This document shows positions 1 to 14,554 of a stretch of DNA of 21,475 nucleotides, piece by piece. This DNA comes from a virus. Position 1 is the first letter of the stretch. The number at the start of each line of letters is the position of its first letter. The DNA is taken from IMG/VR virus record IMGVR_UViG_3300020578_005955, positions 1-21,475 of that record. One strand, 5' to 3'. Both the position numbers and the translations under genes were made by a program. Under the pieces are notes generated by a model. It was given only the letters and a program-made list of their open reading frames with translations, ran no database searches and had not been told where the DNA came from.

Positions 1-1484
1 ATACACCAACGAACACAGGAACTCCAACAAATACACCAACAGGAACAGCAACAAATACACCTACACAAACACCAACACCTACAAATACACCTACAAATAC
101 CCAAACACCAACGTCACCTCTTCAAACATTTAGTATTACTTCGGGTGGTACCTCAAATGAGGCTTGTAATGCGGGAGTTGCAGGAAATATATACGCTTTC
201 GACCCAATATTTGACGATAACAATCAATTCTATAATGTTCCAACAGGTGTTGTTACAGTAGATATGTCAGGGTTCTATAGTGATGGAACGTCTGTTGTTC
301 AATTGAATTCATTAGGTACAACAATAAGTGGATTTGACCTTTGTACATTTCTCGCAACACCGACTCAGACACCAACGAACACAGGAACTCCAACAAATAC
401 ACCAACGAACACAGGAACTCCAACAAATACACCAACTAAGACACCTACAGGAACTCCAACAAATACTCCAACTCCGACGCAGACACAAACACCGACACAA
501 ACATTTGCATGGTACACCTATAGTTTGGGAACTGGCGCTACTGCGTTAGATGCTTGCACAGCTTTTAGTGTATCACCACAAACTATTTATGGTACAATTG
601 CTGGTGGAATTGGACCTAACGTGGGTGAATATCTATACCAAACTGCTGGTAGACCATTAACAAATGTTGTACCTAATGGATTCTATTCTAACGGAACCGA
701 TTGGTACCAAGTTAGTGGAGGACTCGGACAAATTACAACAGCCGACCCTAATGGTTGTTTAGAAATACCAACACAAACTCCAACAAACACTGCGACTAAT
801 ACACCAACACCATCGGTTACTGTAACAAATACTCCAACAAATACACCGAGTAAAACACCAACTCAAACACCTACTCCTACACAAACTTCCACACCGATTG
901 TCAGTCCAACACCAACAACTACTCCAACACCAACTCCAACACCTTATAGAAATATGTTCTTTAGTAATAGTAGTAGTGGTTCAGAAATTACAGGATTTAC
1001 AGGTTCTTTCACTTCATTATTGAGCTTTAGTTTCCCTGTAACTGGTCCGCCATCAGTAAACGCATTCCACGGACCAATCACTGATTCAGTAGATACTATT
1101 GAAGTATATGTGACAGGAGGAACAAATGTCAAGGTGGTGATAGCTAAAAATGGTGTGGGAATATCAGAAGAGTTCGGTACGGCTCCGTTTACATCACAAT
1201 ATACATTCAATACAAATCTTACAGAGAATGACCAGTTGGCTATTTATTTGAATGATGGTGCTGTGACTAATTCGCTTGGATATGACGCGGCTTCATCGGC
1301 AACAGCTTGTGCAAATTTCATATCATCTCCATCAAACTACTATAGTTCAATCGCACTAACTACAGGAGTTAATATTTTCACAGACACTTCACTTACAACT
1401 TTGGCACCTGATGGATATTATTCTGACGGAACAAATTATTATCAGGTCAGTGGCGGTTCCAATTTAGGACCAGTTGCTTGTTAA
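1..1484 (+). CDS. Modular Thr/Pro-linked virion surface protein (5' end outside window)
   Basis: The frame is open to the left edge (first full codon at base 3), so the N-terminus is missing; an internal ATG at 264 is not the true start. Seen: three copies of a module of about 60-70 residues, each bounded by a Cys near its start (EAC, DAC, TAC) and a Cys at its end, with a shared core of type GFYSxGTxxYQVSGG. The modules lie at about bases 129-350, 504-765 and 1270-1484. They are joined by low-complexity Thr/Pro/Asn/Gln linkers (bases 3-128, 357-503, 768-944) built on TPT, TNTPT and TQTPT. A different beta-rich domain without the Cys pattern follows the last linker (945-1270). Thr/Pro stalks joining small Cys domains suit a tail fibre, head fibre or adhesin displayed outside the particle. 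The Thr-rich linkers are plausible O-glycosylation targets for the enzymes encoded next. Function is inferred; no enzymatic motif is visible. Confidence 0.75.
   Translation, partial: TPTNTGTPTNTPTGTATNTPTQTPTPTNTPTNTQTPTSPLQTFSITSGGTSNEACNAGVAGNIYAFDPIFDDNNQFYNVPTGVVTVDMSGFYSDGTSVVQLNSLGTTISGFDLCTFLATPTQTPTNTGTPTNTPTNTGTPTNTPTKTPTGTPTNTPTPTQTQTPTQTFAWYTYSLGTGATALDACTAFSVSPQTIYGTIAGGIGPNVGEYLYQTAGRPLTNVVPNGFYSNGTDWYQVSGGLGQITTADPNGCLEIPTQTPTNTATNTPTPSVTVTNTPTNTPSKTPTQTPTPTQTSTPIVSPTPTTTPTPTPTPYRNMFFSNSSSGSEITGFTGSFTSLLSFSFPVTGPPSVNAFHGPITDSVDTIEVYVTGGTNVKVVIAKNGVGISEEFGTAPFTSQYTFNTNLTENDQLAIYLNDGAVTNSLGYDAASSATACANFISSPSNYYSSIALTTGVNIFTDTSLTTLAPDGYYSDGTNYYQVSGGSNLGPVAC
5..34 (+). repeat. 30-bp direct repeat, copy 1 (Thr/Pro linker)
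   Basis: This 30-mer begins ACCAACGAACACAGG and ends CCAACAAATAC. It recurs without a mismatch at 371-400 and 401-430. It encodes ten residues of the Thr/Pro/Asn/Gly linker and keeps frame, so recombination between copies would change linker length without breaking the protein. Confidence 0.9.
371..430 (+). repeat. Tandem 30-bp direct repeats, copies 2 and 3
   Basis: Two head-to-tail perfect copies of the 30-mer also found at 5-34, inside the second Thr/Pro linker. Thirty is a multiple of three, so copy-number change is in frame. Base-level identity, rather than only similar amino acids, points to recent duplication or ongoing gene conversion. Confidence 0.9.
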
Positions 1485-1509
1485 AATATATAAATAATTG
1501 TAAATTAAA

Positions 1510-1541
1510 CCCTCTACTTTCGTGGAGGGTTTTTTATTTTT
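1510..1541 (+). terminator. Rho-independent terminator after the surface protein gene
   Basis: CCCTCTAC (1510-1517), a four-base TTTC loop and GTGGAGGG (1522-1529) form an 8-bp stem with one G-U pair, followed by six Ts, an A and five more Ts. It closes the surface-protein transcript 25 bases after its stop codon and separates it from the glycosyltransferase operon. Confidence 0.85.
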
Positions 1542-1557
1542 AATCAAAATATATTTC

Positions 1558-2826
1558 ATGAGCAAAATCTTTATTCAGATTGCGTCCTACAGAGACCCTG
1601 AATTAGTTCCAACAATAAGAGATATGTTGGCAAACGCAAAAAAACCTGAAAACCTTGTTTTAGGGATTGCACGTCAATATTCTGAAACTGATGGATTTGA
1701 TAATCTCGATGAGTGGAGAAATGATAAAAGATTTAGAATTTTGGATATTCCCTATCAAGAGGCTAAAGGTGTTTGTTGGGCAAGACATTTGGTTCAACAG
1801 TTATATAAAAATGAAAAATACACAATGCAAATCGACTCGCACATGAGATTTGTTAAAGATTGGGATGAAATTCTAATCAATATGATAAAGGGTCTCCAAA
1901 AGGACGGGTATAAAAAACCTCTACTTACGGGTTATGTACCCTCCTTTGACCCTGATAATGACCCAGCGGGAAGAGCAACAGATGCTTGGAGAATGACTTT
2001 TGATAGATTTATTCCTGAAGGTGCTGTATTTTTCCTTCCTGAGACAATACCAGGTTGGAGAGAAATGACAAAACCTGTCACCGCTAGATTTTATTCTGCA
2101 CACTTTTGTTTTACTTTGGGTGTATTTTCCAAAGAAGTTCAACACAATCCTGAATATTATTTTCACGGAGAAGAGATTTCAATTGCCGCGAGGGCTTATA
2201 CTCATGGATATGATTTATTCCATCCTCACATACCTGTTGTATACCACGAATATACTCGTAAGGGTAGAACGAAACAGTGGGACGATGACAAAACATGGGG
2301 AGATAAAAACAAACACTCTCACCTAACAAATAGAAAGTTATTCGGAATGGATGGAGAGGTACAAGAAGGACACGACGGTCCTTATGGATTCGGTACAGTA
2401 AGAACACTTAGAGATTACGAAAAATACAGTGGTTTGTTATTCGAAAAACGTGCAGTACAAAGATATACTTTAGATAAAAATTATCCTCCAAATCCTTATA
2501 ACTATGAAACTGAGGAAGATTGGAAAAAAGATTTTGCATCTGTTTATAAACATTGCATTGATGTAGGATATTCAAGTGTTCCCGAAAAAGATTATGATTT
2601 TTGGGTTGTTGCATTCCATGGACCTAATGATGAAACATTGTTCAGAAAGGATGCTGATAAATCAGAAATCAATAGACTGATGAACGACCCTGACAAATAC
2701 TGTAAAATTTGGAGGGAATTTCAAACTGACGTTCTTCCAAAGTATTGGGTTGTGTGGCCACACTCAGAGTCGAAGGGATGGTGTGATAGACTTACAGGAC
2801 AACTAAATCATAATCACGTTAGCTAA
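1558..2826 (+). CDS. GT60-like polypeptide N-acetylglucosaminyltransferase (PF11397 type)
   Basis: Predicted cytoplasmic GT-A glycosyltransferase of 422 residues. Seen: an N-terminus of type IFIQIASYRDPELVPTIRDM (residues 4-23), AKGVCWAR (69-76), QIDSHMRF (91-98, the metal and nucleotide-sugar site, equivalent to DxD), and FHGEEISIAARAYTHGYD near residue 215, followed by HIPVVYH. This order matches the Skp1/mucin GlcNAc-transferase family (CAZy GT60), whose studied members attach GlcNAc to hydroxyproline or to Thr in Pro/Thr-rich proteins. A C-terminal region of about 130 residues is not recognised. The ATG at 1558 is chosen because the upstream GTG at 1522 lies inside the terminator hairpin. 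The stop overlaps the next start (TAATG). The neighbouring Thr/Pro-rich protein makes a protein acceptor plausible, but substrate is inferred. Host-glycan modification is an alternative. Confidence 0.75.
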   Translation: MSKIFIQIASYRDPELVPTIRDMLANAKKPENLVLGIARQYSETDGFDNLDEWRNDKRFRILDIPYQEAKGVCWARHLVQQLYKNEKYTMQIDSHMRFVKDWDEILINMIKGLQKDGYKKPLLTGYVPSFDPDNDPAGRATDAWRMTFDRFIPEGAVFFLPETIPGWREMTKPVTARFYSAHFCFTLGVFSKEVQHNPEYYFHGEEISIAARAYTHGYDLFHPHIPVVYHEYTRKGRTKQWDDDKTWGDKNKHSHLTNRKLFGMDGEVQEGHDGPYGFGTVRTLRDYEKYSGLLFEKRAVQRYTLDKNYPPNPYNYETEEDWKKDFASVYKHCIDVGYSSVPEKDYDFWVVAFHGPNDETLFRKDADKSEINRLMNDPDKYCKIWREFQTDVLPKYWVVWPHSESKGWCDRLTGQLNHNHVS

Positions 2827-3560
2827 TGATTTTCACAGATTCTCCGAAATTTGTTGTAAATTTGGAGAGACGAAAAGATAGGTTCGAATCCATCAAAAAG
2901 GAGATGGAGTATATCGGTTGGGAATACGAGTATTTTCCTGCGGTGGATACAAACAGTCATGTTGGGTGCACAAAATCACATTTGGAAATTATAAAGCTTG
3001 CCAAAGAGAGAAATTATGATAAGGTTCTCATAGTTGAAGATGATTGTACCATAATGCCTTATGCAAAATCTTTCATCGAAAAATGCGAATCTACAACAGA
3101 AAATTTTGAGTTTTCCGTTGTAAACTTAGCTCCCACTTTGAACAGACCGGTCAATAGAAGTGAGAAATTTCCTTGGTTTTTGGATGCAACTAATCTACCT
3201 CCCAAGGAGGAACATCATAGGGGAATTTTTGCTACCAACATGATAATGTATCATAGTTCAGTTTATGATAAGGTTTTAGAAATAGAAGAGGCTTCAAAAT
3301 TGAATTATTTTGCAATTGATGACTTTATCTATCAATTTATTACAAGTATTTATCAGAGTTATGTACCCATAGTACCAATAGGACCTCAAATTTCTGATTG
3401 GTCAGATGTGTCACACGGACAGTATAATAATTTTTATACTCAAACTTATAATTGGAATCAATACTCTCCTGTGAAAATACCTGGTGAGTTTTTAAGTTTA
3501 CATAACAATAAATCTACAAAAGAACAAAATATTCATATAGAATTTACCCATGCGAACTAA
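2826..3560 (+). CDS. Glycosyltransferase family 25-like protein
   Basis: A 244-residue GT25 (LPS/LOS glycosyltransferase, PF01755) type enzyme. Seen: FVVNLERRKDRF (9-20), the family's opening strand and nucleotide loop; VGCTKSHLEIIKLAK (46-60), the conserved GC-xSH region; and KVLIVEDDC (66-74), whose EDD is the metal-binding motif. GT25 enzymes usually add galactose or glucose to glycans, and eukaryotic relatives glycosylate collagen hydroxylysine. It overlaps the gene before by one base and the next gene by 11 bases, so translation is probably coupled along the operon. It could extend a sugar laid down by the GT60-like enzyme or act on host surface polysaccharide. The donor cannot be told from the sequence. 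Confidence 0.75.
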   Translation: MIFTDSPKFVVNLERRKDRFESIKKEMEYIGWEYEYFPAVDTNSHVGCTKSHLEIIKLAKERNYDKVLIVEDDCTIMPYAKSFIEKCESTTENFEFSVVNLAPTLNRPVNRSEKFPWFLDATNLPPKEEHHRGIFATNMIMYHSSVYDKVLEIEEASKLNYFAIDDFIYQFITSIYQSYVPIVPIGPQISDWSDVSHGQYNNFYTQTYNWNQYSPVKIPGEFLSLHNNKSTKEQNIHIEFTHAN

Positions 3561-4431
3561 ATTTATAACTTGTATCTACAGTGATTTGGCTGGTACAGGG
3601 TTTGGAGGAAGAAGCTCAAGAGGCGGTCATTATCAATACAGTTTACTTTCACTTTTGAAAATCACAGGTGCTGATTTTGTTTGTTATACCTCAGATAGAG
3701 AGATAGAAAGATTAAAAAGGTTTTTTTATACCGAAAATAATATTAGTGAAGATAAACTTCAATTTGTAATCTTTGATTTGAAAAAAACTAAATTCGAAGA
3801 ACTCCTTTCCAAACACAAAAATTATGAAGATGCTAAAACTGGTGACAGATGTATTGAAATTCAGTGGTCAAAATTTGCTTGGTGGTGGAATGAAGATAAA
3901 TCTTATGATTATTATTTTTGGATTGACGCAGGTTTATCTCACTGTGGTCTTATACCAAACAAATACCTTACAGGTAGTTTACACCCTCAAGGTAGGTATT
4001 ATGAAAGTAATCTTTTCAGTAATAGTTTTCTCAAAAATTTGATTGAGGATACTGAAGGCAAGTTCTTGATATTGGGAAAAGACAATGAAAGAAATTATTG
4101 GTCTGGAACTGTGAATGAAAAGTGGTACAACAATTACGATAGAAGTATTCATATTATAGGTGGAATGTTTGGAGGTCATAGGGACCTGTGGGACAATGTT
4201 GTTGGTATTTTTGAAAATTATGTTAATCAAATAACACCAGTCGAAAGAGTATATCATGAAGAGGTTATTATGAGCTTGATGTATCAAAATCATAAAGACT
4301 TGTTTGTACGTAAGCACTTTGACATTTGGTGGTGTCCTGATAATTGTCCATCAGGCACGAATCCAAAACTGTTTGAAGAAAATAAAAGTTTTTACAGAAT
4401 ATTAGAAGAATTTAATAGAATTTATGAGTAA
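3550..4431 (+). CDS. HtrL/YibB-like putative glycosyltransferase
   Basis: A 293-residue protein resembling the HtrL/YibB family (PF09612), found in surface-polysaccharide loci and thought to be GT-A glycosyltransferases. Seen: an N-terminal strand KFITCIYSDLAGTG; YYFWIDAGLSHC (121-132), giving a D-x-G candidate metal site; a GGMFGGHRDLW segment; and a late YHEEVIMSLM. The same landmarks in the same order occur in the next gene (FWIDGG, GGFFGGPRE, GTEESIFS), so the two are probably paralogues. Trp/Tyr clusters (KFAWWWNEDKSYDYYFW, 108-124) are striking. It overlaps the gene upstream by 11 bases and the next gene by 8. Family assignment is moderate and donor and acceptor are unknown. Confidence 0.6.
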   Translation: MRTKFITCIYSDLAGTGFGGRSSRGGHYQYSLLSLLKITGADFVCYTSDREIERLKRFFYTENNISEDKLQFVIFDLKKTKFEELLSKHKNYEDAKTGDRCIEIQWSKFAWWWNEDKSYDYYFWIDAGLSHCGLIPNKYLTGSLHPQGRYYESNLFSNSFLKNLIEDTEGKFLILGKDNERNYWSGTVNEKWYNNYDRSIHIIGGMFGGHRDLWDNVVGIFENYVNQITPVERVYHEEVIMSLMYQNHKDLFVRKHFDIWWCPDNCPSGTNPKLFEENKSFYRILEEFNRIYE

Positions 4432-6100
4432 TATAACATTAGTCACAGGTATATGGGACATCGGTAGGTCCGAATTGAGTGAAGGTTGGTCACGACCTTA
4501 TCAACACTATTTAGATAAATTTGAAAAATTGTTAGAGGTTGATGCTAACATAATTATCTATGGCGATAAAGAATTAGAAGAATTCGTTTTCTCAAGAAGA
4601 AAACAGTCCAATACACAATTTATAGAAAGACCCCTTTCTTGGTTTCAAAACAATGAATTTTTCCCTTTGATTCAAAATATCAGAAATAGTAATAGTTGGA
4701 AAAACTTGGCTGGTTGGTTGAAAGACTCAACACAAGCTCGTTTGGAAAATTATAATCCATTGGTAATGTCCAAAGTATTTCTGTTGAACGATGCTAAAAT
4801 AATGGATAAGTTTAATTCTGAATATCTTTTTTGGATTGATGGTGGATTAACAAATACGGTGCACCCTGGTTATTTTACACATGATTTGGTTTTAGATAAA
4901 CTATCCAAATATATTTCAAAATTCTCTTTTATCTGTTTCCCTTACGATGCTGAAAGGGAGATTCATGGTTTTGAATATAATAAATTGAATGAAATTGCTG
5001 GTGCCAAAGTTAACAAAGTTGCTCGAGGTGGGTTTTTTGGAGGACCGAGAGAAACGATATCAAACTTGAATTCAATCTATTATGGATTATTAAGGTCCAC
5101 TTTGGAAGAAGGTTTCATGGGAACTGAGGAGTCTATCTTCAGTATAATCTGTTATAAACATGCAGACCTTGTAAATTATTTCGAAATTGAATCCAATGGA
5201 TTAATTGGTAAGTTTTTTGAAGACTTGAAAAATGACAAGCTCGTGCCGAAAAACGAAAAGTCGGCTACCATACAAAACAAGCTTGATACAAGTAAAGTGG
5301 GTTTATATGTCATTGGTTTTAACAGTCCCAAACAATTTCAAACGTTGATTGATTCAATGATGGAATATGATAAAGATTTTTTACTCAAAACAAAAAAGTT
5401 TTTATTGAATAATTCAACTGACCGAAACACAGATTTAATTTACAGTCAGATTTGTGATGAATATCAATTTGAAGAAATAAAAAAAGATAATTTGGGTATT
5501 TGTGGTGGACGCCAATTTATTGCAGAACACTTTGAAAACGAAACCGATTTGGATTACTATTTGTTTTTTGAAGATGACATGTTCTTTTTCTGTAAACCAG
5601 ATGAAGTGTGTAGAAATGGTTTCAACAGAATGGTTCCAAATCTTTTCACAAAGTCATTAGAAATTACTAACAAAGAAAATTTTGATTTCCTCAAACTTAA
5701 TTATTCTGAGTTTTTTGGTGACAACAGTATTCAATGGTCTTGGTATAATGTACCACAACATGTGAGAGAAGAATTTTGGCCAGGAAAACCAAGGCTACCC
5801 CAAATGGGACTTGACCCAAATGCTCCCAAAGCAAAATATGATTCTATTCTATCTCACAAAGGAGTTCCATACGCAACAGGAGAAGTTTATTATTGTAATT
5901 GGCCTCAGATTGTTTCAAGACCTGGTAATGTCAAGATGTTTTTGGACACCACTTGGGCGCATCCTTTTGAACAAACTTGGATGAGTCATATGTACCAATT
6001 GACAAAGAAGGGTGAATTGAAACCGGGTATTTTATTACTCACTCCAACGGAACACAATAGATTTGAACATTACAGTAGAGATTTAAGGAAAGAGTCATAA
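4424..6100 (+). CDS. Two-domain glycosyltransferase: HtrL/YibB-like domain fused to a second GT-A domain
   Basis: A 558-residue fusion. Residues 1 to about 270 match HtrL/YibB: ITLVTGIWDIGR (4-15), LFWIDGGLTNT (135-145), RGGFFGGPRE (201-210) and GTEESIFSIICYKHADL (233-249). After a Lys/Asn-rich linker (about 270-290) a second Rossmann-like GT-A domain starts with KVGLYVIGFNSPKQF (291-305), with GICGGRQF (358-365) and YLFFEDDMFFF (379-389) as the DxD-type metal site. Two nucleotide-sugar sites suggest a bifunctional enzyme adding two sugars in turn, as in some capsule synthases; that is inference. It is the last gene of the four-gene overlapping set. No terminator follows, and an ATATTTAT motif comes immediately after. 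Confidence 0.7.
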   Translation: MSNITLVTGIWDIGRSELSEGWSRPYQHYLDKFEKLLEVDANIIIYGDKELEEFVFSRRKQSNTQFIERPLSWFQNNEFFPLIQNIRNSNSWKNLAGWLKDSTQARLENYNPLVMSKVFLLNDAKIMDKFNSEYLFWIDGGLTNTVHPGYFTHDLVLDKLSKYISKFSFICFPYDAEREIHGFEYNKLNEIAGAKVNKVARGGFFGGPRETISNLNSIYYGLLRSTLEEGFMGTEESIFSIICYKHADLVNYFEIESNGLIGKFFEDLKNDKLVPKNEKSATIQNKLDTSKVGLYVIGFNSPKQFQTLIDSMMEYDKDFLLKTKKFLLNNSTDRNTDLIYSQICDEYQFEEIKKDNLGICGGRQFIAEHFENETDLDYYLFFEDDMFFFCKPDEVCRNGFNRMVPNLFTKSLEITNKENFDFLKLNYSEFFGDNSIQWSWYNVPQHVREEFWPGKPRLPQMGLDPNAPKAKYDSILSHKGVPYATGEVYYCNWPQIVSRPGNVKMFLDTTWAHPFEQTWMSHMYQLTKKGELKPGILLLTPTEHNRFEHYSRDLRKES

Positions 6101-6104
6101 CAAT

Positions 6105-6112
6105 ATATTTAT
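6105..6112 (+). promoter_or_regulatory. ATATTTAT motif, candidate late promoter
   Basis: The octamer ends four bases before the ATG at 6117. If it acts as a -10 element, the transcript would be almost leaderless. The same octamer lies in sense orientation before five other genes in the window (6522, 10786 reverse, 14543, 17046, 21197). No constant -35 element is visible, as in T4 late promoters. Confidence 0.4.
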
Positions 6113-6116
6113 TGTT

Positions 6117-6497
6117 ATGGAATTTTATATCGCTAAGAATGCTACCCTTCCGTTGCTTAAAATGCAGGTTGTTCAAGACGGGAGGTCGAGTTATTTGGAA
6201 CTGATGAAGTCGTTGCCGTATTCAACAATCTTTTTCACAATGGTTGATGTTTATACAGGTATTCCGAAAATTGTCTCAGCTCCTTGTTATATAGTTTCAT
6301 TGATATTGCCTGAGCCAGGAGCATTGACAGAGTATTATATTTATTTTCAATTTACATCGATGGATACTGATACACCAGGAAGATATCAAGGTCAGTTTTT
6401 GATAAAAAACGATGAAGGCAATTTAATTCTTCCACTTAGAGAACAACTATATATTAATATCGAAGACAGTTTTATCGCAGAATCTGCCTGTTGTTAA
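6117..6497 (+). CDS. Small beta-rich phage protein, BppU-N/Ig-like (putative baseplate or tail)
   Basis: A 126-residue protein with no signal peptide or membrane segment. The N-terminal MEFYIAKNATLPLLKMQV, the central TIFFTMVDVYTGIPKIV and TDTPGRYQGQFLIK, then LILPLREQLYINI, follow the layout of phage baseplate upper protein N-terminal/Ig-like domains: an input-type strand, a hydrophobic core strand, a T-x-P-G-x-Y turn and an edge strand ending in a Pro. It ends in Cys-Cys. Such domains sit in baseplates, fibres or neck structures. The gene stands alone between the glycosyltransferase operon and the polymerase, with an ATATTTAT motif on each side. The fold call is from pattern only; it could be another small virion Ig-like protein. 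Confidence 0.5.
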   Translation: MEFYIAKNATLPLLKMQVVQDGRSSYLELMKSLPYSTIFFTMVDVYTGIPKIVSAPCYIVSLILPEPGALTEYYIYFQFTSMDTDTPGRYQGQFLIKNDEGNLILPLREQLYINIEDSFIAESACC

Positions 6498-6521
6498 TTT
6501 GATTGGTAATCCCTTTTTATT

Positions 6522-6529
6522 ATATTTAT
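6522..6529 (+). promoter_or_regulatory. ATATTTAT motif upstream of DNA polymerase
   Basis: The octamer lies in the 64-bp gap between the BppU-like gene and the polymerase start. It is six bases before an ATG (6536) that opens a nine-residue reading frame and 32 bases before the polymerase GTG. It is probably the polymerase promoter if the motif is functional. Confidence 0.4.
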
Positions 6530-6535
6530 TATTGA

Positions 6536-6565
6536 ATGAGTAAGGTGAACTTCACGATAGTGTGA
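6536..6565 (+). CDS. Possible 9-residue leader peptide ahead of DNA polymerase
   Basis: ATG at 6536 opens MSKVNFTIV, with its TGA at 6563-6565 overlapping the polymerase GTG start (6562-6564) by two bases. A leader overlapping a hairpin-covered start codon could couple or attenuate translation of the polymerase. It is too short to have coding evidence of its own. A single-base indel that split the true polymerase N-terminus is another reading. Confidence 0.25.
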   Translation: MSKVNFTIV

Positions 6566-6566
6566 A
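6551..6566 (+). promoter_or_regulatory. Hairpin over the DNA polymerase start codon (candidate translational operator)
   Basis: TTCAC (6551-6555), loop GATAGT and GTGAA (6562-6566) form a 5-bp stem whose 3' arm contains the GTG start codon. An overlapping perfect palindrome GTGAACTTCAC lies at 6545-6555. T4 DNA polymerase is known to repress its own translation by binding an RNA hairpin at its start site, so an analogous operator is plausible. The stem is short and binding is inferred. Confidence 0.35.
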
Positions 6567-9324
6567 AGCTAATAAGCCACTCGGAAAATATATGATATCA
6601 AGTCAAGAAATTGAGGACTTTCTCCACGGAAATGACCCAGAACAATTTATAATAGCTATCGAGTTTGACTACGTTTCAAATTCAATTTACAAAGTAAAAG
6701 AAATACCAGGTAAAGGAAAAGACATCCGTAAAGACCATTTCATACCATTTGCTTGGGTTGGAGACCTTAGAGGTTGTGGTTTTTATAATGATTCAAAGTT
6801 AGCACAAAAAGAAGCAATGTCCAAACATGGAATTGTGATTGAAAAACTTGAAACGAAAGGAGATGAAAGACTAGAAAAAGGTCTATTATATTTGGTAAAA
6901 TCACTAAAAGGTTATAGAGAACTAATACAATTTTTTAGAGATGGTAATTTTGACCCTTGGAGTGATAAGTCAAAAGATAAAATTTTAATCCTCCCTCCTG
7001 TTGAACAATATTTTATTGCGAAAGAAAAAAGATTATTTAAAGGATTCTATGATTACGACCAAGTGACTCGTTTGGTTTTTGACTTGGAAACAAACGCATT
7101 GGACCCGAAAGACGGACGCATATTGATGATTGGAATTAAAACGAACAAGGGATATAATAAGGTTATTGAATGTCTTAATGAATCTCAAGAAAAGGGTGCA
7201 ATCGTCGAATTTTTTAATATAATCGACCAAATAAAACCTTCAATTATAGGAGGTTACAACTCAGCAAATTTTGATTGGAATTGGATTTTCGTAAGAGCAC
7301 AAATACTTGGTATTGACCTAAGAAAAACAATTAAATCTCTACACCCACAACATTCTTATACAAGAAAGGAAAGTATTTTAAAACTTGCAAATGAAGTTGA
7401 GGATTATCTTCAAACTTCAATTTGGGGGTACAATGTTATTGACATCCTTCACTCAGTTCGTAGAGCTCAGGCAATTAATTCAAATATTAAAGCTGCAGGT
7501 TTAAAATACATTACAAAGTTTATTAATAGAGAAGCCAAAGACCGTATATACATAGAGCACGCACATATCGGAAAGATGTACGCTGCTAAAGAAGAGTATT
7601 GGTTGAATATTCAAAACGGTAATTACAAAAAAATTGGAACAGACGAAAAAATAGATGAGGTTTGTAAAAAGAGAGACGATGTTTACATCCGAACTACAGG
7701 GGATAATCTCGTTGAAAGATACTTAGAGGACGACTTGGAGGAATCTTTGGCAGTCGATAAGGAATTTAATCAAGCTTCATTTTTGCTTGCCTCTATAATA
7801 CCTACGACTTATGAAAGGGTCTCAACAATGGGAACTGCGAGTCTATGGAAAATGTTAATGATTGCTTGGTCTTATAAAAATGGATTAGCGATACCTCAAA
7901 AACAACCCAAGACAAACTTTGTAGGAGGTCTTTCACGACTACTCAAGGTAGGATACAGTAAGAATGTACTCAAATTAGACTTTTCTTCCCTATACCCATC
8001 TATTCAACTTGTACATGATATATTCCCTACATGTGATGTCACGGGAGGTATGAAGGGAATGTTAAAACATTTTCGTGATACTCGTATCAAATACAAACAA
8101 CTCGCTGAGGATTACTATTTTACAGACCAAGAAAAATCACTTTCATATTCGAACAAACAACTACCAATAAAAATATTCATCAACTCAATGTTTGGTGCTT
8201 TGTCAGCTCCTCAAGTATTTGCTTGGGGTGACATGTATATGGGTGAGCAAATCACTTGTACTGGTCGTCAGTACCTTCGTCAAATGATTAAGTTTTTTAT
8301 GTGCAAAGGTTACACCCCTTTAGTTATGGATACGGATGGCGTTAATTTCTCAAGTCCAGAAGATTCAGACACTCATAGATATATTGGTCGTGGTTTGAAT
8401 TGGAAAGTAGATGCGGGTAAAGTGTATTTTGGTCCCGAAGCTGACGTCGCGGAGTATAATGATATATTCATGAGAGGGGAAATGGCTCTTGACACAGACG
8501 GCATATGGCCTTCATGTATAAATTTATCGAGAAAAAACTATGCTGTGATGGATTCTAAAGGAAAAGTAAAGTTGACTGGAAACTCTATAAAATCAAAAAA
8601 ACTTCCACTATATATTGAAGAATTTTTAGACAATGGTATTAAAATTCTGTTAGAAGGTAAGGGAAAAGAATTTATAGAGTATTACTATCAATATCTACAA
8701 TTAATATTCGACAAAAAAATTGCTTTATCTAAAATTGCCCAAAGAGCTAAGGTTAAATTGACACTAGATGATTATAAAAAAAGATTGTCTCAGCGAACCA
8801 AAGCGGGTAATCAGATGTCAAGAATGGCACATATGGAATTAATATTACAAAACAATCTTACTGCAAATTTGGGCGATGTAATAATGTATGTTAATAATGG
8901 CGTAAAAGCATCTCACGGAGATGTTCAAAAGAAGGGTGAGGGTGTTCAAATAAATTGTTATATGTTGGATTCCGACATTCTAGATATTAATCCTAATATG
9001 ACCGGCGATTATAATGTTCCGAGAGCGGTTGTTACTTTTAACAAGAGAATTGAACCTTTACTAGTTGTATTTAAACAGGAAATCAGAGATGCATTAATTG
9101 TGAACGACCCAGCTGAAAGAGGAATATTTACTACATCTCAATGTGAACTTATCAACGGCATACCTTTCAATAGTGGAGACCAAGATAAATTGGAAGAAGA
9201 CGTTCTTCAAATAACTGAACAAGAATTGGAATATTGGAAAAGAAGAGGATTAGAGCCTGATTACATTTACAATCTGGCTGATGAAGGATGGGAGAAAAAA
9301 TTAGGATTGTTTCAATCCGTCTGA
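6562..9324 (+). CDS. Family B DNA polymerase with 3'-5' exonuclease (T4 gp43-like)
   Basis: The replicative polymerase, 920 residues from a GTG start; ATG at 6592 (residue 11) is the alternative and no in-frame start lies further upstream before the stop at 6541. Exonuclease motifs: Exo I FDLET (173-177), Exo II GGYNSANFDW (230-239), Exo III YLEDD (387-391). Polymerase motifs: A LDFSSLYPSIQ (472-482), B KIFINSMFGA (537-546), C VMDTDG (588-593), then RKNYAV (657-662) as the KxY-type element. All catalytic Asp/Glu are present, so it should be active. Oddities: Phe for the usual Tyr in motif B, DTDG where DTDS is usual, and only about 55 residues between motifs A and B, much shorter than in T4, implying reduced fingers. 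The first 165 residues do not look like T4 gp43. The C-terminal KKLGLFQSV could be a sliding-clamp-binding tail. The 3' end overlaps the convergent gene by 24 bp. Confidence 0.95.
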   Translation: MKANKPLGKYMISSQEIEDFLHGNDPEQFIIAIEFDYVSNSIYKVKEIPGKGKDIRKDHFIPFAWVGDLRGCGFYNDSKLAQKEAMSKHGIVIEKLETKGDERLEKGLLYLVKSLKGYRELIQFFRDGNFDPWSDKSKDKILILPPVEQYFIAKEKRLFKGFYDYDQVTRLVFDLETNALDPKDGRILMIGIKTNKGYNKVIECLNESQEKGAIVEFFNIIDQIKPSIIGGYNSANFDWNWIFVRAQILGIDLRKTIKSLHPQHSYTRKESILKLANEVEDYLQTSIWGYNVIDILHSVRRAQAINSNIKAAGLKYITKFINREAKDRIYIEHAHIGKMYAAKEEYWLNIQNGNYKKIGTDEKIDEVCKKRDDVYIRTTGDNLVERYLEDDLEESLAVDKEFNQASFLLASIIPTTYERVSTMGTASLWKMLMIAWSYKNGLAIPQKQPKTNFVGGLSRLLKVGYSKNVLKLDFSSLYPSIQLVHDIFPTCDVTGGMKGMLKHFRDTRIKYKQLAEDYYFTDQEKSLSYSNKQLPIKIFINSMFGALSAPQVFAWGDMYMGEQITCTGRQYLRQMIKFFMCKGYTPLVMDTDGVNFSSPEDSDTHRYIGRGLNWKVDAGKVYFGPEADVAEYNDIFMRGEMALDTDGIWPSCINLSRKNYAVMDSKGKVKLTGNSIKSKKLPLYIEEFLDNGIKILLEGKGKEFIEYYYQYLQLIFDKKIALSKIAQRAKVKLTLDDYKKRLSQRTKAGNQMSRMAHMELILQNNLTANLGDVIMYVNNGVKASHGDVQKKGEGVQINCYMLDSDILDINPNMTGDYNVPRAVVTFNKRIEPLLVVFKQEIRDALIVNDPAERGIFTTSQCELINGIPFNSGDQDKLEEDVLQITEQELEYWKRRGLEPDYIYNLADEGWEKKLGLFQSV

Positions 9325-9636
9325 TGAGAGAATATACCAATTACCCCTAACGAATCTAAACTCCACACAAGCAAATTTATCTAATTCAACTTCATTAAAC
9401 TCTTCATCGATTAAACCCAAATCAGGTATTACCACTAGTTTTGTCATTGATTTTACAACCACATGGTCACTTGTCTTTGAATTTAAATAAAGAATTGATT
9501 CTTGAATTCCTCTTACAACAACACAAGCTTCACCCTGAATTGTATAAGATGGCTCTGATACAATTGCGACTTCAGAGGTTTCAATTTTAAACCCATTTAT
9601 AATTCTTATGGAAGGTATTGATTTTACAATTGCCAT
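9301..9636 (-). CDS. Small putative virion protein, unknown function
   Basis: A 111-residue protein, acidic, predicted mostly beta: an N-terminal MAIVKSIPSIRIINGF, regularly spaced hydrophobic strands and a C-terminal FRFVRGNWYILSSDG. I do not recognise a named family, although the ending resembles short phage structural proteins. Its ATG overlaps the stop of the neck-protein gene by one base (TAATG), so it is translated from the same message and may be a partner or decoration protein of the neck or head. Its last 24 bases overlap the end of the convergent polymerase gene. No terminator is visible between them, so transcripts from the two strands must overlap here. Confidence 0.6.
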   Translation of the reverse strand: MAIVKSIPSIRIINGFKIETSEVAIVSEPSYTIQGEACVVVRGIQESILYLNSKTSDHVVVKSMTKLVVIPDLGLIDEEFNEVELDKFACVEFRFVRGNWYILSSDGLKQS

Positions 9637-10763
9637 TAGATTACGTAAATTTGACGGGGCATCGCTCTATATCTCATTTGTTTGTTAAGATTTTCTGCAA
9701 TTGTGGCTTCTCTCTCCATTACTTTTTCAGGTCTAAGTCTTGTTAACCATCCTTCAGGACCTGTCAGTTCCTCGAGTAATTTTAATTTTTCGTCTTTGGA
9801 TTCAGTTGATAAACTTTGATAATCCAAAGTAATTTCACTATCAGGAGTTTTCAAATTACCTGAGTATTTTCCTCTTACTCGCGCCAATGTCTCTTTACAA
9901 TAGGCGGTAAACCATCTACGGACCCATTGTTGGCCAGGAACGTTTATGTCTTCCCAAGAAAGGGATTCGATTGGAACGTCTGTTGGTAGTTTTATGACGT
10001 CTGGGTTCGCTTTGAGACAATCTAGTCTATCATCGGGCCCTACATCATAATACCAATACCAAACAGTTTTTCCAACATACAAGCTGTAATTACTCCAGTT
10101 GAATCTTCCACCGGGTGTATTATAAAGAAATATATTTTTCTTACCATCGGGTAAACCTGTTATTCTATAAGTTAATGAACCTCCTAAGATTCTGTTTAAA
10201 ATATTTGCTTCTTGCATTCTTATCAAGTAGTCAAAACCTGACATCATAAAGTATGAGCCTTGATAACCCATTTGAGCATAACCTGCTTGGTCTGCACCCA
10301 AACCTATACCACCAAAACCAAATCCACCAATACCCCCTATTCCTAATGCGTTGAAAGGTCGGTTCGAGAACCATAGAAGTTCGTTTACTTCACGACCCGC
10401 AGGAATTTCGTAATTTTGTGTATTGGCACTAAGTTCAAAATAATCTTTTTTCAACACCCAAGGTCCTACTGTTTGTAGTCCCACAATTTTAGAATATGAG
10501 TATGAAAATTGTTGCTCAAAGTCCATAGTTCTTGTTATCAAAGCTCTAGCGACAGATTTTTCATTCATGTTCAAATTGACAAGGTTGACCCATTGAGAAT
10601 CAATCAACCACTGTAGAATATACTCTTCATAATCGCCAATTGAAAGTTCCATCAAAGAGTCAAGCATTTCGTCAGTAAGTTCTACACTACGTAAAGGCGC
10701 TCCAAGTTGATTTCTTAATCTATTATAGATTCTACTTCTTTCTGGTTCAGGGATTACTGCCAT
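9636..10763 (-). CDS. Neck (head completion) protein, T4 gp13-like
   Basis: A 375-residue protein. The opening RIYNRLRNQLGAPLRSVEL and the following helical LTDEMLDSLMELSIGDYEEY match the start of T4-type gp13 neck proteins, as does the late part: WVRRWFTAYCKETLARVRGK, a LDYQSLSTES segment and KLKLLEELTGPEGWL. T4 gp13 (about 309 residues) joins the filled head to the tail with gp14. This one is longer, with a Gly-rich insertion (GIGGIGGFGFGGIGLG, near residues 140-156) and an aromatic stretch KTVWYWYYDVGPDD. ATG at 10763 is preferred over the TTG one codon upstream. An ATATTTAT motif in sense lies 15 bases upstream. It is encoded on the opposite strand to the sheath and tube genes, unlike in T4. 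The family call rests on pattern, not alignment. Confidence 0.6.
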   Translation of the reverse strand: MAVIPEPERSRIYNRLRNQLGAPLRSVELTDEMLDSLMELSIGDYEEYILQWLIDSQWVNLVNLNMNEKSVARALITRTMDFEQQFSYSYSKIVGLQTVGPWVLKKDYFELSANTQNYEIPAGREVNELLWFSNRPFNALGIGGIGGFGFGGIGLGADQAGYAQMGYQGSYFMMSGFDYLIRMQEANILNRILGGSLTYRITGLPDGKKNIFLYNTPGGRFNWSNYSLYVGKTVWYWYYDVGPDDRLDCLKANPDVIKLPTDVPIESLSWEDINVPGQQWVRRWFTAYCKETLARVRGKYSGNLKTPDSEITLDYQSLSTESKDEKLKLLEELTGPEGWLTRLRPEKVMEREATIAENLNKQMRYRAMPRQIYVI

Positions 10764-10778
10764 CAAAATGATTTAGCT

Positions 10779-10786
10779 ATAAATAT
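10779..10786 (-). promoter_or_regulatory. ATATTTAT motif upstream of the neck-protein gene
   Basis: Read on the minus strand, the octamer overlaps the last base of the upstream SOD gene's stop and ends 15 bases before the neck-protein ATG. It would give the two structural genes a promoter separate from the SET-SNF2-SOD group. The plus strand reads TATAAATA here, but no plus-strand gene starts nearby. Confidence 0.4.
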
Positions 10787-12315
10787 CATCTCAAGGTATA
10801 AATAAAATCACTCACGGGAAACTTGTAGGCATTTATTCCTTTTTCGATATTTTTGTTTTCGAATACGATAGTTTCGAATGAATTACTGAAAATCATCCAA
10901 TCAACATTATATTTTTTTACACTACTTGGTGTTAGTACAACATAATTTTCATCCTCAATAAAGTATGTTGAAAATGGCTTTATTTGTGATTTGTAAATTT
11001 TACCGTCAACCTGAATTTCGCAATCTAACCCCTCAGAATCAGATTGTGCCCCGAAAGAACTTTTTATTTCTACATTACCTTCTCCAAATTCTTTTTCCAA
11101 TCTTTCTTTGGACCATGATTCTACTTTTCCTCCTTTTATTTTACTTTCACCTAAGTTTGACATAATAGCAATGTAAAAAGCAGAATCTTCTTTAAAAATT
11201 TTGTCAGCGCCCATTACAAGTATTTTGACAAGTCTTTTGATTCCCTCAATTTGTTCTTCGGGTTTTTTCCCCCGCAATAAAATTTTTGGTTTTCCCAAAG
11301 AAGAAAGTAGGGCGTTCACACTTTTTGTTATCATACAAAAAGCCCTGTGATTACCAGCTAAATAACTAATGTCGTGCCTTATTCCATCTTTATAGAAACC
11401 TTGCATTCTGTTTTGACTGATGTCTTTTTCTTTGAATTCTAACCAAGAAATTTTTTTGAGAGCGGTATAAATTCCACCACCATATATTTTACTAATCTCG
11501 TTGTTTTCTAATAAGGATTGAAAAAAGTTATCATCCTCTTTACCACAAGATTGAATAAAATTTTTTTTACCTTCCATTAGTAACCCTTGACCAATTTTTG
11601 ATTCAATGAGGTTCGTTTTGGATTTCATTTCGAATAGTTTGGAAACAAAATCCCAATTTACAACTTTCCAAAAGTTTGTGATGTATTCGTCTCTTTTGTT
11701 TCTGTATTTGAGATAATAAGCATGTTCCCATAAGTCCAAACCCAATAATGGAAATCCCCCACCTTCAACAACGTTCATAAGTGGGTTGTCTTGATTTGGA
11801 GTAGACATTATTTTCAAATTTCCGTTCTTAGTTAATAGTAACCAAACCCATCCTGACCCAAACCTGTCTTTAGCAATCGTTTCAAATTTCTTTTTGAAAT
11901 TGGTGAATGTACCATATTCTTTGGTAATCTTTTTATAAAGTTCGCCAGTCAATTTTTTTGGCTTCGGTGTTAACATATTCCAAAACATTGCGTGGTTGAA
12001 TGCTCCACCAGCGTTATTTCTTATTACTTTGTCGTACCTTGAAATATTTTTAATTATTTTTTCAAGTTCCAAATCACCGTAATTCTTTTTGGCTAATGCG
12101 TCGTTCAATTTATCTACATAACCCTTATAATGTTTGTTGTAGTGAAATTCCATTGTCTCGGGGTCAATGAATGTTTTGAGGGCTGAGTAAGAATAGGGTA
12201 ATTTTTCTATCCCTATTTTTTTCATTTCTGTGAGGAGTAAATTTTTCTCTTCGTTCACTTTGTTTTCCAAAATCTTATATTCGATTTTTTGGATTTCTTC
12301 TTGTAATTTTTTCAT
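10786..12315 (-). CDS. Mn-type superoxide dismutase fused to a putative PD-(D/E)XK nuclease domain
   Basis: A 509-residue fusion. Residues 38-230 form a full Fe/Mn superoxide dismutase: LPYSYSALKTF, METAL-ligand His58 in MEFHYNKHYKGYV (with His62 and Tyr66), His108 in NNAGGAFNHAMFW, and Asp194 and His198 in GLDLWEHAYYLKY. Gly104 at the FeSOD-Gln position and Gln175 in STPNQDNPLM indicate the manganese type. All four ligands are kept, so it should convert superoxide to peroxide and oxygen. A helical extension of about 37 residues precedes it. The 270-residue C-terminal part is not SOD. It is helical, then ends with SEGLDCEIQVDGKIYKSQIK (427-446) and VDWMIFSN (471-478), a D(x)n-QxK layout typical of PD-(D/E)XK nucleases (Asp431, Gln444, Lys446). 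The nuclease call is inference. The start at 12315 is the only upstream ATG and no Shine-Dalgarno is present. Confidence 0.85.
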   Translation of the reverse strand: MKKLQEEIQKIEYKILENKVNEEKNLLLTEMKKIGIEKLPYSYSALKTFIDPETMEFHYNKHYKGYVDKLNDALAKKNYGDLELEKIIKNISRYDKVIRNNAGGAFNHAMFWNMLTPKPKKLTGELYKKITKEYGTFTNFKKKFETIAKDRFGSGWVWLLLTKNGNLKIMSTPNQDNPLMNVVEGGGFPLLGLDLWEHAYYLKYRNKRDEYITNFWKVVNWDFVSKLFEMKSKTNLIESKIGQGLLMEGKKNFIQSCGKEDDNFFQSLLENNEISKIYGGGIYTALKKISWLEFKEKDISQNRMQGFYKDGIRHDISYLAGNHRAFCMITKSVNALLSSLGKPKILLRGKKPEEQIEGIKRLVKILVMGADKIFKEDSAFYIAIMSNLGESKIKGGKVESWSKERLEKEFGEGNVEIKSSFGAQSDSEGLDCEIQVDGKIYKSQIKPFSTYFIEDENYVVLTPSSVKKYNVDWMIFSNSFETIVFENKNIEKGINAYKFPVSDFIYTLR

Positions 12316-12336
12316 AAATAATGAAAGGCGTTTTAT

Positions 12337-12344
12337 ATAAATAA
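12337..12344 (-). promoter_or_regulatory. TTATTTAT motif upstream of SOD fusion gene
   Basis: This is a one-mismatch version of the ATATTTAT motif, read on the minus strand in the 43-bp gap after the helicase gene, ending 21 bases before the SOD start. Weak evidence on its own. Confidence 0.25.
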
Positions 12345-12358
12345 CACGCTTTCTGATA

Positions 12359-14113
12359 TTATCTCATTTCGTTGATGCGGTTCATTATTTCTTCCACGAA
12401 GTCCGCAGAATTTTGAATGTCCCCCATAACAGTAGCAATAACGTTTTTCTTTTGGTTTAATATGTCATAGATTATACCCTCGATTGTGTTTTCAAAGATG
12501 GGGTAATATACCAATACATTGTTCTTTTGACCGTATCTGTATGCTCGGTCTTCGGCTTGAGAGTGGTCGGATGGTAAAAAAGATAAGTCGTTCATTATTA
12601 CAGCTTCGGCTGACGTGAGTGTGATACCGACACCAGCGGCCTTAATGTTTCCAACAAACACCGTAATTTTTTCGTTTTCTTGAAATTGGTCGACTGCTAA
12701 TTGTCTTTCGGGTTTTGACATTGAACCATCAAGTTTAACTGCTGACTTACCAAAATGTTCACAGATTTTATTTAGAGAGTTAGTAAAATTACAAAATATT
12801 ATAACTTTTTTTCCTTGTTCTAATATGTTTTCGGCAAGCTCAATCGTTTGATTTGTTTTCTCATCTGCAATAATTTGTCTTACTTTTGTGAGTTTTGTAA
12901 ATTGAACAGTGAGAGATTTGGATTCTTCAGGGTTTTTTTCATACCAATTATAATATTCACCCATGAGTTCTTCATACTCTTTAGATTTAAGTCTAAGATA
13001 TACAGGTGTAATAATCTTGTCAGGCAAATCTAAAACATCTTCTTTTAATCTTCTGAGTAATAATGATGATGTTCTGTCTCTTAATTCTTCCAAGTTTGAT
13101 GCTCCCATCACATTCCAAACTTTTCTTGGACCAACCCTAAATTGATATCCCGAACAATATCTGATAACATAGGCCATCCAATTCTTGGCAACAGGTGAAT
13201 CTACAAGACTTAACAAGTTATAATAATCAATTGGTCTTGATGTCATAGGTGTGCCTGTTAAAAGCCATAGTCGGTCAACTTTTTTGACTATGTCATTAAT
13301 TAATTTTGTTCGTTGGGCTTGAGGATTTTTGATATAGTGTGCCTCATCAACAACCACCAAATCGAAATTCGCATTATTAATTTGTGACTCACTTTTTTTC
13401 TTAATGTCATGGAAATTTTTTATTATATCGTAATTTATAATAACAAAGTCGTGTTCTGTTGAAAAATTCTTTCCCTCCGCGATAAAAATACTTTTGTCAG
13501 TGTAGTTCTCAATTTCCCTTTTCCAATTTATTTTCAATGTTGCAGGACAAATAATAAGTATTTTTTTCGCACCTGTTTCAAGAGCGGATATTATTGTTGA
13601 AGTAGTCTTACCAAGACCCATGTCATCAGCCAATATGAATTTTTTGTTTTCTACTAGTTTTTGAACCGCCTCTTTTTGATGATTAAGAGGAGGTCTTACA
13701 GAATATTTTTCGTAGTTAATCACCACATCCTTAACGGTATTATCTTTTATTACAGCCGCCTTTGGAAGCCAAAAATCGTGAATTTCTTCAGAATCAAAAA
13801 TTTTTCCCCAAATGTGAAAAGATTTTTCCCTTTCCGCTAATAATTTTTCCACCCATATTTTTGTTGGAATTTCAGTATATAATTTGTCGTCTGCGAGTTT
13901 TTGTGCAAAATAAGCATCTAAGATTATCCATTTTCGAGCAATTTTAGGGGAAATCTCATAGTTTTCAATTATGTATTCTGATTGACTTCTTGTTGGATAA
14001 AATTTTTTATTAATTTGAGACTTTCTTTTCAGCTCCAAAATGTAGTTGTTAGCCCCCTGATAGGTTTCGAGTAATGTGATGGCTTTAGACTCTAAACTAA
14101 TTTCAGAACTCAT
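12359..14113 (-). CDS. SNF2-family DNA translocase/helicase (SMARCAL1-like)
   Basis: A 584-residue superfamily 2 ATPase. Seen: motif I DDMGLGKT (163-170, Walker A), Ia ICPATLKINW (188-197), II DEAH (256-259), III LTGTP (285-289), IV KVIIFCNF (436-443), V AAGVGITLTSA (492-502), VI QAEDRAYRYGQ (519-529). QxxxRxxRxGQ in motif VI is the SNF2 signature and the short spacing suggests the distant SMARCAL1/HARP branch, known for reannealing and fork remodelling. T4 UvsW performs fork regression and may be the functional counterpart. Residues 1-137 are a helical N-terminal domain that I do not recognise. ATG at 14113 overlaps the stop of the SET gene by one base. An intact core predicts activity; substrate is inferred. 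Confidence 0.92.
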   Translation of the reverse strand: MSSEISLESKAITLLETYQGANNYILELKRKSQINKKFYPTRSQSEYIIENYEISPKIARKWIILDAYFAQKLADDKLYTEIPTKIWVEKLLAEREKSFHIWGKIFDSEEIHDFWLPKAAVIKDNTVKDVVINYEKYSVRPPLNHQKEAVQKLVENKKFILADDMGLGKTTSTIISALETGAKKILIICPATLKINWKREIENYTDKSIFIAEGKNFSTEHDFVIINYDIIKNFHDIKKKSESQINNANFDLVVVDEAHYIKNPQAQRTKLINDIVKKVDRLWLLTGTPMTSRPIDYYNLLSLVDSPVAKNWMAYVIRYCSGYQFRVGPRKVWNVMGASNLEELRDRTSSLLLRRLKEDVLDLPDKIITPVYLRLKSKEYEELMGEYYNWYEKNPEESKSLTVQFTKLTKVRQIIADEKTNQTIELAENILEQGKKVIIFCNFTNSLNKICEHFGKSAVKLDGSMSKPERQLAVDQFQENEKITVFVGNIKAAGVGITLTSAEAVIMNDLSFLPSDHSQAEDRAYRYGQKNNVLVYYPIFENTIEGIIYDILNQKKNVIATVMGDIQNSADFVEEIMNRINEMR

Positions 14114-14511
14114 TATTTGATATTAATATCTTTTCTACCATCATTCCAATATTCTTCACCACCATAGAAAATTAGAATTTCTTCATCTTTATCTATGTCT
14201 CTTGTTGCGTAAAACTCGAATGTATCATGTACTTTATTGGACCTCCAATTTGCATTTGGTGTGTTACTGTGATTATAAAAACTCGAAAAGCCTAAACCAA
14301 CGACTTGTAATTCCCATTCTGATGTCCCCATAGGCCAATTAAATCGATGGTTAATCAAAATTGGGCTAGATGTTTTTTTAGGAATATTCAAATCCAAGTA
14401 TGGGCATATTTCGAAAACTTCATTAATAAGAATTTTTTCAGAGGCAAATATTCCTCTACCGTGGATTGGACTTTTGTCCAAATAAATTTTGGTCGGTGGA
14501 TTTACACGCAT
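14113..14511 (-). CDS. SET-domain protein (putative protein lysine methyltransferase)
   Basis: A compact 132-residue SET domain with almost nothing else. Seen: KIYLDKSPIHGRGIFASE (8-25; the GRGxFA S-adenosylmethionine site), FYNHSNTPNANW (78-89; the NHSxxPN pseudoknot motif) and YATRDIDKDEEILIFYGG (101-118; the GEEL-type end with the catalytic Tyr). The size resembles the stand-alone viral vSET of chloroviruses (about 119 residues), a histone methyltransferase. The phage or host target is unknown; nucleoid proteins, ribosomal proteins or virion proteins are possible. The ATG at 14511 is chosen because a GTG at 14580 would overlap the start of the divergent gene and add a segment unlike SET. 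It is translationally coupled to the SNF2 gene (TAATG), so the two products are made together. Confidence 0.85.
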   Translation of the reverse strand: MRVNPPTKIYLDKSPIHGRGIFASEKILINEVFEICPYLDLNIPKKTSSPILINHRFNWPMGTSEWELQVVGLGFSSFYNHSNTPNANWRSNKVHDTFEFYATRDIDKDEEILIFYGGEEYWNDGRKDINIK

Positions 14512-14542
14512 AGTACTTAGTCGAAATATAATCTTTGAAACA

Positions 14543-14550
14543 ATATTTAT
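14543..14550 (+). promoter_or_regulatory. ATATTTAT motif in the divergent SET/virion-protein intergenic region
   Basis: The octamer ends four bases before the ATG at 14555, the same distance as at 6105-6112. It belongs to a 14-mer AATATTTATCAATA (14542-14555) that recurs exactly at 17045-17058 upstream of the tail sheath. The 43-bp gap (14512-14554) must also hold the promoter for the minus-strand SET operon. Confidence 0.45.
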
Positions 14551-14554
14551 CAAT

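Follow-up and report, generated by a model that had tools for sequence, protein, structure and literature searches.

A putative O-glycosylation system for the threonine/proline-rich linkers of virion proteins in aquatic jumbo myophages

We analysed a 21,475-base viral record (IMG/VR record IMGVR_UViG_3300020578_005955, positions 1 to 21,475; the whole of it is hereafter the window), which carries myophage genes, i.e. those for a tail sheath, a head-tail adaptor, a B-family DNA polymerase and a helicase. At its left end lies a gene for a protein with threonine/proline-rich (Thr/Pro) linkers, followed by an operon of four overlapping glycosyltransferase genes (1558-6100), the first of which encodes a GT60-like enzyme of family PF11397. 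Our results indicate that this jumbo-myophage system probably O-glycosylates the Thr/Pro linkers of the phage's own virion proteins by the stepwise mechanism set out below. Such a system, starting on the Thr/Pro linkers, had been put forward from the bare sequence (the original prediction); it survived all the computational tests that were run and we grade it as partly supported, the support including a fold likeness of the enzyme to polypeptide N-acetylgalactosamine (GalNAc) transferases (GalNAc-Ts) and the virion glycoproteins of a relative, phage XacN1, recorded in the accessible text of its description (PMC5852040). The window may belong to the moraphage lineage. Moraphages are jumbo myophages of aquatic habitats that share four core groups of glycosyltransferases and have uvsW, gp13, sheath and PolB (PMC12619734), and the gene content of the window and of its relatives agrees with this placement.

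The GT60-like enzyme and the linker protein

The proposed acceptor and the proposed initiating enzyme are encoded as follows (all on the plus strand; aa, amino acids).

3..1484, plus strand: Thr/Pro-linker protein, C-terminal 493 aa, open at the left edge of the contig; phrog_15511; proposed glycan acceptor
3..128, plus strand: Thr/Pro linker 1, 42 aa with 20 Thr and 9 Pro
342..509, plus strand: Thr/Pro linker 2, 56 aa with 26 Thr and 11 Pro
762..959, plus strand: Thr/Pro linker 3, 66 aa with 26 Thr and 16 Pro
1558..2826, plus strand: GT60-like polypeptide glycosyltransferase (PF11397), proposed initiator

The layout first described, a Thr/Pro protein with three linkers ahead of a four-gene overlapping operon, was borne out (3-1484, then 1558-6100), except that the linker protein is not complete, as the 5' end of its open reading frame (ORF) lies off the contig and the N terminus is missing. 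In the part that is present, globular repeat domains (GFYSNGTxWYQVSGG...C) alternate with the three linkers, which together hold 72 Thr in 164 aa, mostly in the contexts PTN, NTP, PTP and PTQ, and are written with mixed ACN and CCN codons; an example of a linker peptide is PTNTPTPTQTPT.

The product of 1558-2826 matches PF11397 with E=1.5e-69 (235.6 bits, against a curated cut-off of 21; the XacN1 orthologue reaches 260.8 bits) and phrog_24687 with E=2e-167, and the GT60 signatures claimed for it, SYRDP, QIDSHMRF and HGEE, are all present. The DSH metal motif occupies aa 93-95, HGEE aa 203-206 and a C-terminal beta domain aa ~326-415. Across 24 diverse phage homologues D93, S94, H95, G204 and E206 are invariant, and HGEE is kept in 23, the exception being L223, which has AGDE; H230, invariant in the phage GT60 family, is a candidate third metal ligand. 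An AlphaFold2 model built with the 24-sequence alignment had a mean predicted local distance difference test score (pLDDT) of 88.6 and a predicted template modelling score of 0.82. When this predicted structure was compared with the PDB using Foldseek (the original prediction had suggested a comparison with GT60 structures), ranks 1-26 were all polypeptide GalNAc-Ts (E=5e-10 to 1e-8), including human T2 and T4, T1, Toxoplasma T3 and Drosophila matches, and bacterial teichoic-acid and galactofuranosyl transferases ranked below them. In the GalNAc-Ts, Mn is bound by a DXH motif together with one more His (PMC9996832, PMC6994419), and the phage DSH motif equals this DXH motif. Structural alignment to the GalNAc-Ts gave 9-16% identity, and the 24-sequence profile found no sequence match in the PDB at E<=5, though GalNAc-Ts are in that database. 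Therefore, we take the likeness to the GalNAc-Ts (family GT27) to be one of working and not of membership. In animals, the GT27 enzymes start glycans on Thr or Ser of Pro-rich peptides.

By PF11397 the enzyme is GT60-like, sharing its family with the alpha-N-acetylglucosamine (GlcNAc) transferases TcOGNT1 of Trypanosoma cruzi and Skp1 Gnt1 of Dictyostelium and Toxoplasma, and transfer of GlcNAc by the phage enzyme is what this kinship suggests. TcOGNT1 makes GlcNAc-alpha-O-Thr on mucins (PMC9472816), and T. cruzi extracts use KPPTTTTTTTTKPP as acceptor with UDP-GlcNAc and Mn2+ (PMC3769586). The substrates of the T. cruzi GT60 enzymes are Thr/Pro mucins, on which alpha-GlcNAc-Thr is extended by further transferases. 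The phage enzyme differs from these in that it presumably works in the bacterial cytosol and carries the C-terminal beta domain, and in its case acceptor and sugar are inferred. The system thus resembles mucin-type O-glycosylation in the polypeptide-transferase GT-A fold of its initiator and in the tandem Thr/Pro stretches encoded alongside.

Association of the enzyme with Thr/Pro-rich proteins

In a co-occurrence search, named beforehand as a test capable of refuting the original prediction, the PF11397 genes of related phages proved to be associated with Thr/Pro proteins. Among 346 GT60 relatives in viral contigs, we used the best 80 (84-95% identity; contigs up to 326 kb). For the loci with at least 1 kb of upstream sequence, a Thr/Pro ORF ends no more than 400 bp upstream of the GT60 gene in 65/69 and no more than 3 kb upstream in 69/69, and in none of the 80 loci is the gene immediately downstream a Thr/Pro ORF; Thr/Pro-rich ORFs make up 15.5% of all those in these loci. 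A second sample was chosen by the DNA polymerase so that GT60 played no part in the selection, and here GT60 was present in 27/27 loci and a Thr/Pro ORF lay within two genes upstream in 25/26. For a third sample, a Thr/Pro DNA pattern was the sole criterion, and of the 89 records that it gave, 37 contain PF11397; for comparison, tblastn with the GT60 protein of the window matched 3 of 50,697 phage records. In the 20 of these linker-first loci that were examined, the enzyme is 32-76% identical to that of the window, the gene orders include several unrelated ones and the Thr/Pro ORF mostly lies within a few kb of GT60. The pairing returns with enzymes that share as little as 32-62% identity with that of the window, and in other gene orders. 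In 12 long linker-first records the median distance from the enzyme gene to the nearest Thr/Pro motif is 5.3 kb, where random positions would give 20 kb (P=0.007). In L222/L223, an enzyme 37% identical to that of XacN1 stands directly behind a Thr/Pro protein, with no other glycosyltransferases. A 317-kb GT60-positive contig contains no copy of the strict motif; with a shorter motif it has 27, against 3 in the control.

The cultured phages tell a similar story. GT60 orthologues occur in XacN1 (ORF334, 47% identity) and RAS14 (45%), both with the same last cassette gene as the window. The genomes of XacN1 and RAS14 hold 29 and 19 (TP)3 motifs, respectively, while ten of 11 GT60-negative phages, RaK2, CBB and 121Q among the 11, have none and the remaining one has a single motif. 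The structural genes of XacN1 are closest to those of RaK2-like phages, as its authors state in the accessible text, where they also report at least two glycoproteins in XacN1 virions and suggest ORF328 and ORF334 as their makers (PMC5852040). Long XacN1-like contigs likewise bear the Thr/Pro motif. The independence of the association is carried by the linker-first sample and the cultured phages.

The Thr/Pro proteins of the relatives are long, those of the adjacent set reaching 1,843 aa. One of them contains beta-propeller and laminin-G/ConA-like domains, that of L062 matches the virion structural family phrog_8510, and XacN1 ORF325, encoded behind the baseplate wedge genes and carrying a Thr/Pro linker close to the C terminus, matches the 'virion structural protein' family phrog_10938 (6e-73). 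Linkers of XacN1 are also found in ORF350, ORF372 and ORF384.

The cassette and the proposed mechanism

The remaining elements of the locus are the following.

1507..1541, plus strand: intrinsic terminator with an 11-bp stem, UUUC loop and U-run, between the linker gene and the glycosyltransferase operon
2826..3560, plus strand: GT25-family glycosyltransferase (PF01755, 1e-12), proposed extender; variable, often replaced in relatives
3550..4431, plus strand: HtrL/YibB-like glycosyltransferase, no Pfam match, hhalign 97.9% to HtrL; proposed extender
4424..6100, plus strand: two-domain glycosyltransferase, HtrL_YibB (2e-16) and a C-terminal GT-A domain; conserved last cassette gene
6117..6497, plus strand: conserved boundary gene for a 126-aa protein; in other phages its homologues have a C-terminal Thr/Pro linker extension

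Three further glycosyltransferases had been claimed behind the GT60-like gene and the claim holds, with the qualification that the second of them (3550-4431) is recognised only by homology, its profile matching the N-terminal domain encoded by the last gene of the cassette. The model of the 558-aa product of that last gene (mean pLDDT 88) matches mostly tandem GT-A enzymes, i.e. LH3, LARGE1, chondroitin polymerase and COLGALT1. The ends and the middle of the cassette evolve differently. GT60 identity exceeds that of PolB in all 27 polymerase-selected loci (median 0.86 against 0.78), whereas GT25, with an identity of 0.51, is present in at most 15 of the 27; its place is often taken by GT10, GT7-like, FkbM and other sugar genes. 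Across the relatives, 0-10 genes lie between GT60 and the HtrL/GT-A gene, and among their products are GT10 fucosyltransferases, GT7/GT2-like and GT1-like enzymes, FkbM and RMNT-type methyltransferases, a fusion of HAD and nucleotidyltransferase and, in XacN1, a carbamoyltransferase. A simple hydropathy scan found two or more predicted membrane segments in none of 761 cassette proteins. A fixed first step, exchangeable later steps and the lack of membrane export fit the stepwise glycosylation of a soluble intracellular protein.

The terminator (-16.2 kcal/mol, z=-6.2) is kept in about 45 distinct relatives and its stem covaries, with 14 cells changed on both sides, where shuffles gave 4.5 (15 sequences). 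Therefore, the glycosyltransferase operon probably has a transcript of its own, separate from that of the linker gene; because of the covarying terminator, a single transcript from the linker gene through the operon no longer counts as the simplest reading. The GTG start at 1522 is spurious, as it lies inside the terminator, and the GT60 start is ATG 1558. A T4-type late promoter at 1489, TATAAATA, scored no better than chance. At a fixed distance after the terminator and ahead of GT60 there is an A/T-rich stretch (AAAATATA...; window 1507-1560, about 45 relatives), which is perhaps the promoter of the operon.

We propose the following series of steps. In the host cytoplasm, the PF11397 enzyme would act in a metal-dependent manner on large virion proteins, at Thr residues of their Thr/Pro linkers, and the first sugar would be an alpha-linked N-acetylhexosamine (HexNAc), most likely GlcNAc, taken from host UDP-GlcNAc. 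The GT25 enzyme, the HtrL-like enzyme and the two-domain HtrL/GT-A enzyme may then add further sugars in sequence. With the first and last enzymes constant and the middle genes swapped, the outer glycan would change and the acceptor and first sugar would stay the same. The phage could gain stalks that are stiff, extended and resistant to proteases, and/or a coat whose variability is directed against host receptors, decoys or grazers. The genes with their families, the predicted fold of the enzyme, the association, the pattern of conservation and the terminator are results of the analysis; in this scheme we infer Thr as acceptor, the HexNAc (GlcNAc) as first sugar, the order of addition, the fibre or stalk role and the benefit. 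We give about even chances to a wider reading, that a widespread class of jumbo phages builds true mucin-like virion proteins. The highly conserved GT60 would prime Thr in tandem Thr/Pro linkers, which several tail or fibre proteins would carry, and fucosyl-, galactosyl- and methyltransferases from an exchangeable cassette would make the glycan coat particular to each phage, much as antigenic variation does elsewhere.

The boundary gene may belong to the same system. Its homologues in L228, L230, L232 and L241 have a C-terminal Thr/Pro linker, and the 6117-6497 protein may therefore be another virion acceptor, here without its linker.

Alternative explanations and relation to known systems

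Several observations weigh against linker glycosylation. The case for it is computational. The adjacency largely reflects shared descent, the GT60-first and polymerase-first samples being mostly one lineage, and in the XacN1-like phages the linkers are scattered genome-wide and not beside GT60. The whole-chain TM-score to the GalNAc-Ts is moderate (about 0.45-0.53), and PF11397 also covers a hydroxyproline transferase and bacterial genes without a known acceptor. Furthermore, 52 of the 89 linker-bearing records have no detected GT60; many of these are fragments, several exceed 140 kb, and therefore Thr/Pro linkers can exist without the enzyme and may be mere spacers. Near the Thr/Pro proteins of such GT60-negative records, few glycosyltransferases (GT1/GT4, GT9/TibC-like) were found among 70 neighbours, hence no general substitute for GT60 came to light. 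These records also suggest a rival in which the cassette glycosylates virion proteins at other sites, i.e. capsid, tail tube or globular fibre domains, and the linkers are unmodified spacers. Virion glycosylation is already known in mycobacteriophages, there at the C-termini of capsid and tail-tube subunits (Freeman et al. 2023, cited in the accessible text of the moraphage paper, PMC12619734), and the accessible text on XacN1 does not name which of its proteins are the glycoproteins (PMC5852040). We nevertheless judge glycosylation at other sites unlikely, since it leaves without explanation both the co-tracking of Thr/Pro proteins and PF11397 over 32-95% enzyme identity and different gene contexts, and the fold and family match to transferases of Thr/Pro peptides.

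The other rivals concern different acceptors or no function in common. The GT25 and HtrL families were named from lipopolysaccharide (LPS) loci and the cassette swapping is like that of O-antigen loci, so that the targets of the enzymes during infection might be surface polysaccharide or LPS of the host (superinfection exclusion, serotype conversion); but none of the 761 cassette proteins is a flippase, a polymerase or another multi-pass membrane protein, on which ground this candidate was set aside, the cassette is linked to virion genes, and we know of no lipid acceptor for PF11397, which makes LPS modification improbable. Glycosylation of the DNA of the phage, with hypermodified bases like those of T4 and its relatives, would suit an operon that adjoins the DNA polymerase gene; DNA-modifying glycosyltransferases are common in phages, and the carbamoyltransferase of the XacN1 operon points the same way. 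A search for a hydroxymethylase with PF00303 turned up only canonical thymidylate synthases, present as single copies, and the six examined keep the catalytic LPPCH motif and an Asn (FN or YN), as thymidylate synthases do; dCMP-hydroxymethylases are homologues that lack this dUMP-binding Asn. Moreover, in divergent phages the enzyme stands beside Thr/Pro genes without the polymerase, and to our knowledge PF11397 enzymes do not act on DNA; we consider DNA modification likewise improbable. Pure linkage, in which both genes are core genes of one jumbo-phage lineage and neighbours by chance, draws on the fact that most adjacent cases are orthologous loci. It is scarcely credible given the association without synteny in XacN1/RAS14, L223, L225, L238 and L236, the linker-first sampling, the fold and the family chemistry. 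Glycosylation of the Thr/Pro linkers remains our preferred explanation.

The original prediction knew of no described phage system with this set of genes. Genes of this kind were already on record, as XacN1 ORF334 (PMC5852040), as phrog_24687, as 'Glycosyltransferase, GlcNAc' in BFVD and within the moraphage groups, where the glycosyltransferases were counted without an assigned role (PMC12619734), and no paper was found that joins the enzyme to Thr/Pro linkers or describes the layout of constant initiator and variable cassette. Nor did we find a paper naming GT60 in phages in the literature on phage, GT60 and glycosyltransferase. In the accessible text, the authors of the XacN1 study did not tie ORF334 to Thr/Pro linkers, GT60 or a multi-gene cassette (PMC5852040). 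Virion glycosylation has rarely been described in phages and its machinery is mostly without assignment; the present locus offers a concrete initiator, acceptor motif and extension cassette. The system is conserved across hundreds of aquatic jumbo-phage contigs and occurs in the cultured phages XacN1, RAS14 and CM1. If our proposal is correct, mucin-type O-glycosylation would also be a viral strategy in bacteria, cassette swapping would diversify the surface of the virion, and the soluble enzyme might serve as a tool for glycosylating Thr/Pro peptides in bacteria.

Among the GT60-negative records, Thr/Pro-linker proteins lie near collagen-repeat proteins, SprB-repeat proteins and papain-like proteases, and one neighbour resembles TibC/GT9, a known protein glycosyltransferase family. 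Bacterial GT60 relatives give a weak signal, with an adjacent Thr/Pro ORF in 5/58, where 1.3% of ORFs are Thr/Pro-rich. Tandem or paired PF11397 genes occur in L225 (G013; 1-15000), L265, L276, L297, L301, L303, L305 and L269. Two of these, L305 and L269 (Jiulongibacter sediminis), have a Thr/Pro-rich ORF between two PF11397 copies, and cellular bacteria may therefore have a similar system. The surroundings of PF11397 in L277, L278, L284 and L295 (Burkholderiales, Neisseriaceae), with a recurring 626-aa gene and mostly also ~350-aa genes nearby, are a different conserved cellular neighbourhood. Elsewhere in the window, the very large tail sheath (17088-20285, 1065 aa) has recognisable sheath domains only in its last ~230 aa, and a small SET-domain protein (14113-14580, minus strand; PF00856 1e-13) is a possible protein methyltransferase. 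The 509-aa product of 10786-12315 (minus strand) is an Fe/Mn superoxide dismutase, unusual for a phage (PF02777 2e-39, PF00081 2e-22); the dismutase makes up its N-terminal ~230 aa and the C-terminal half has no family match.

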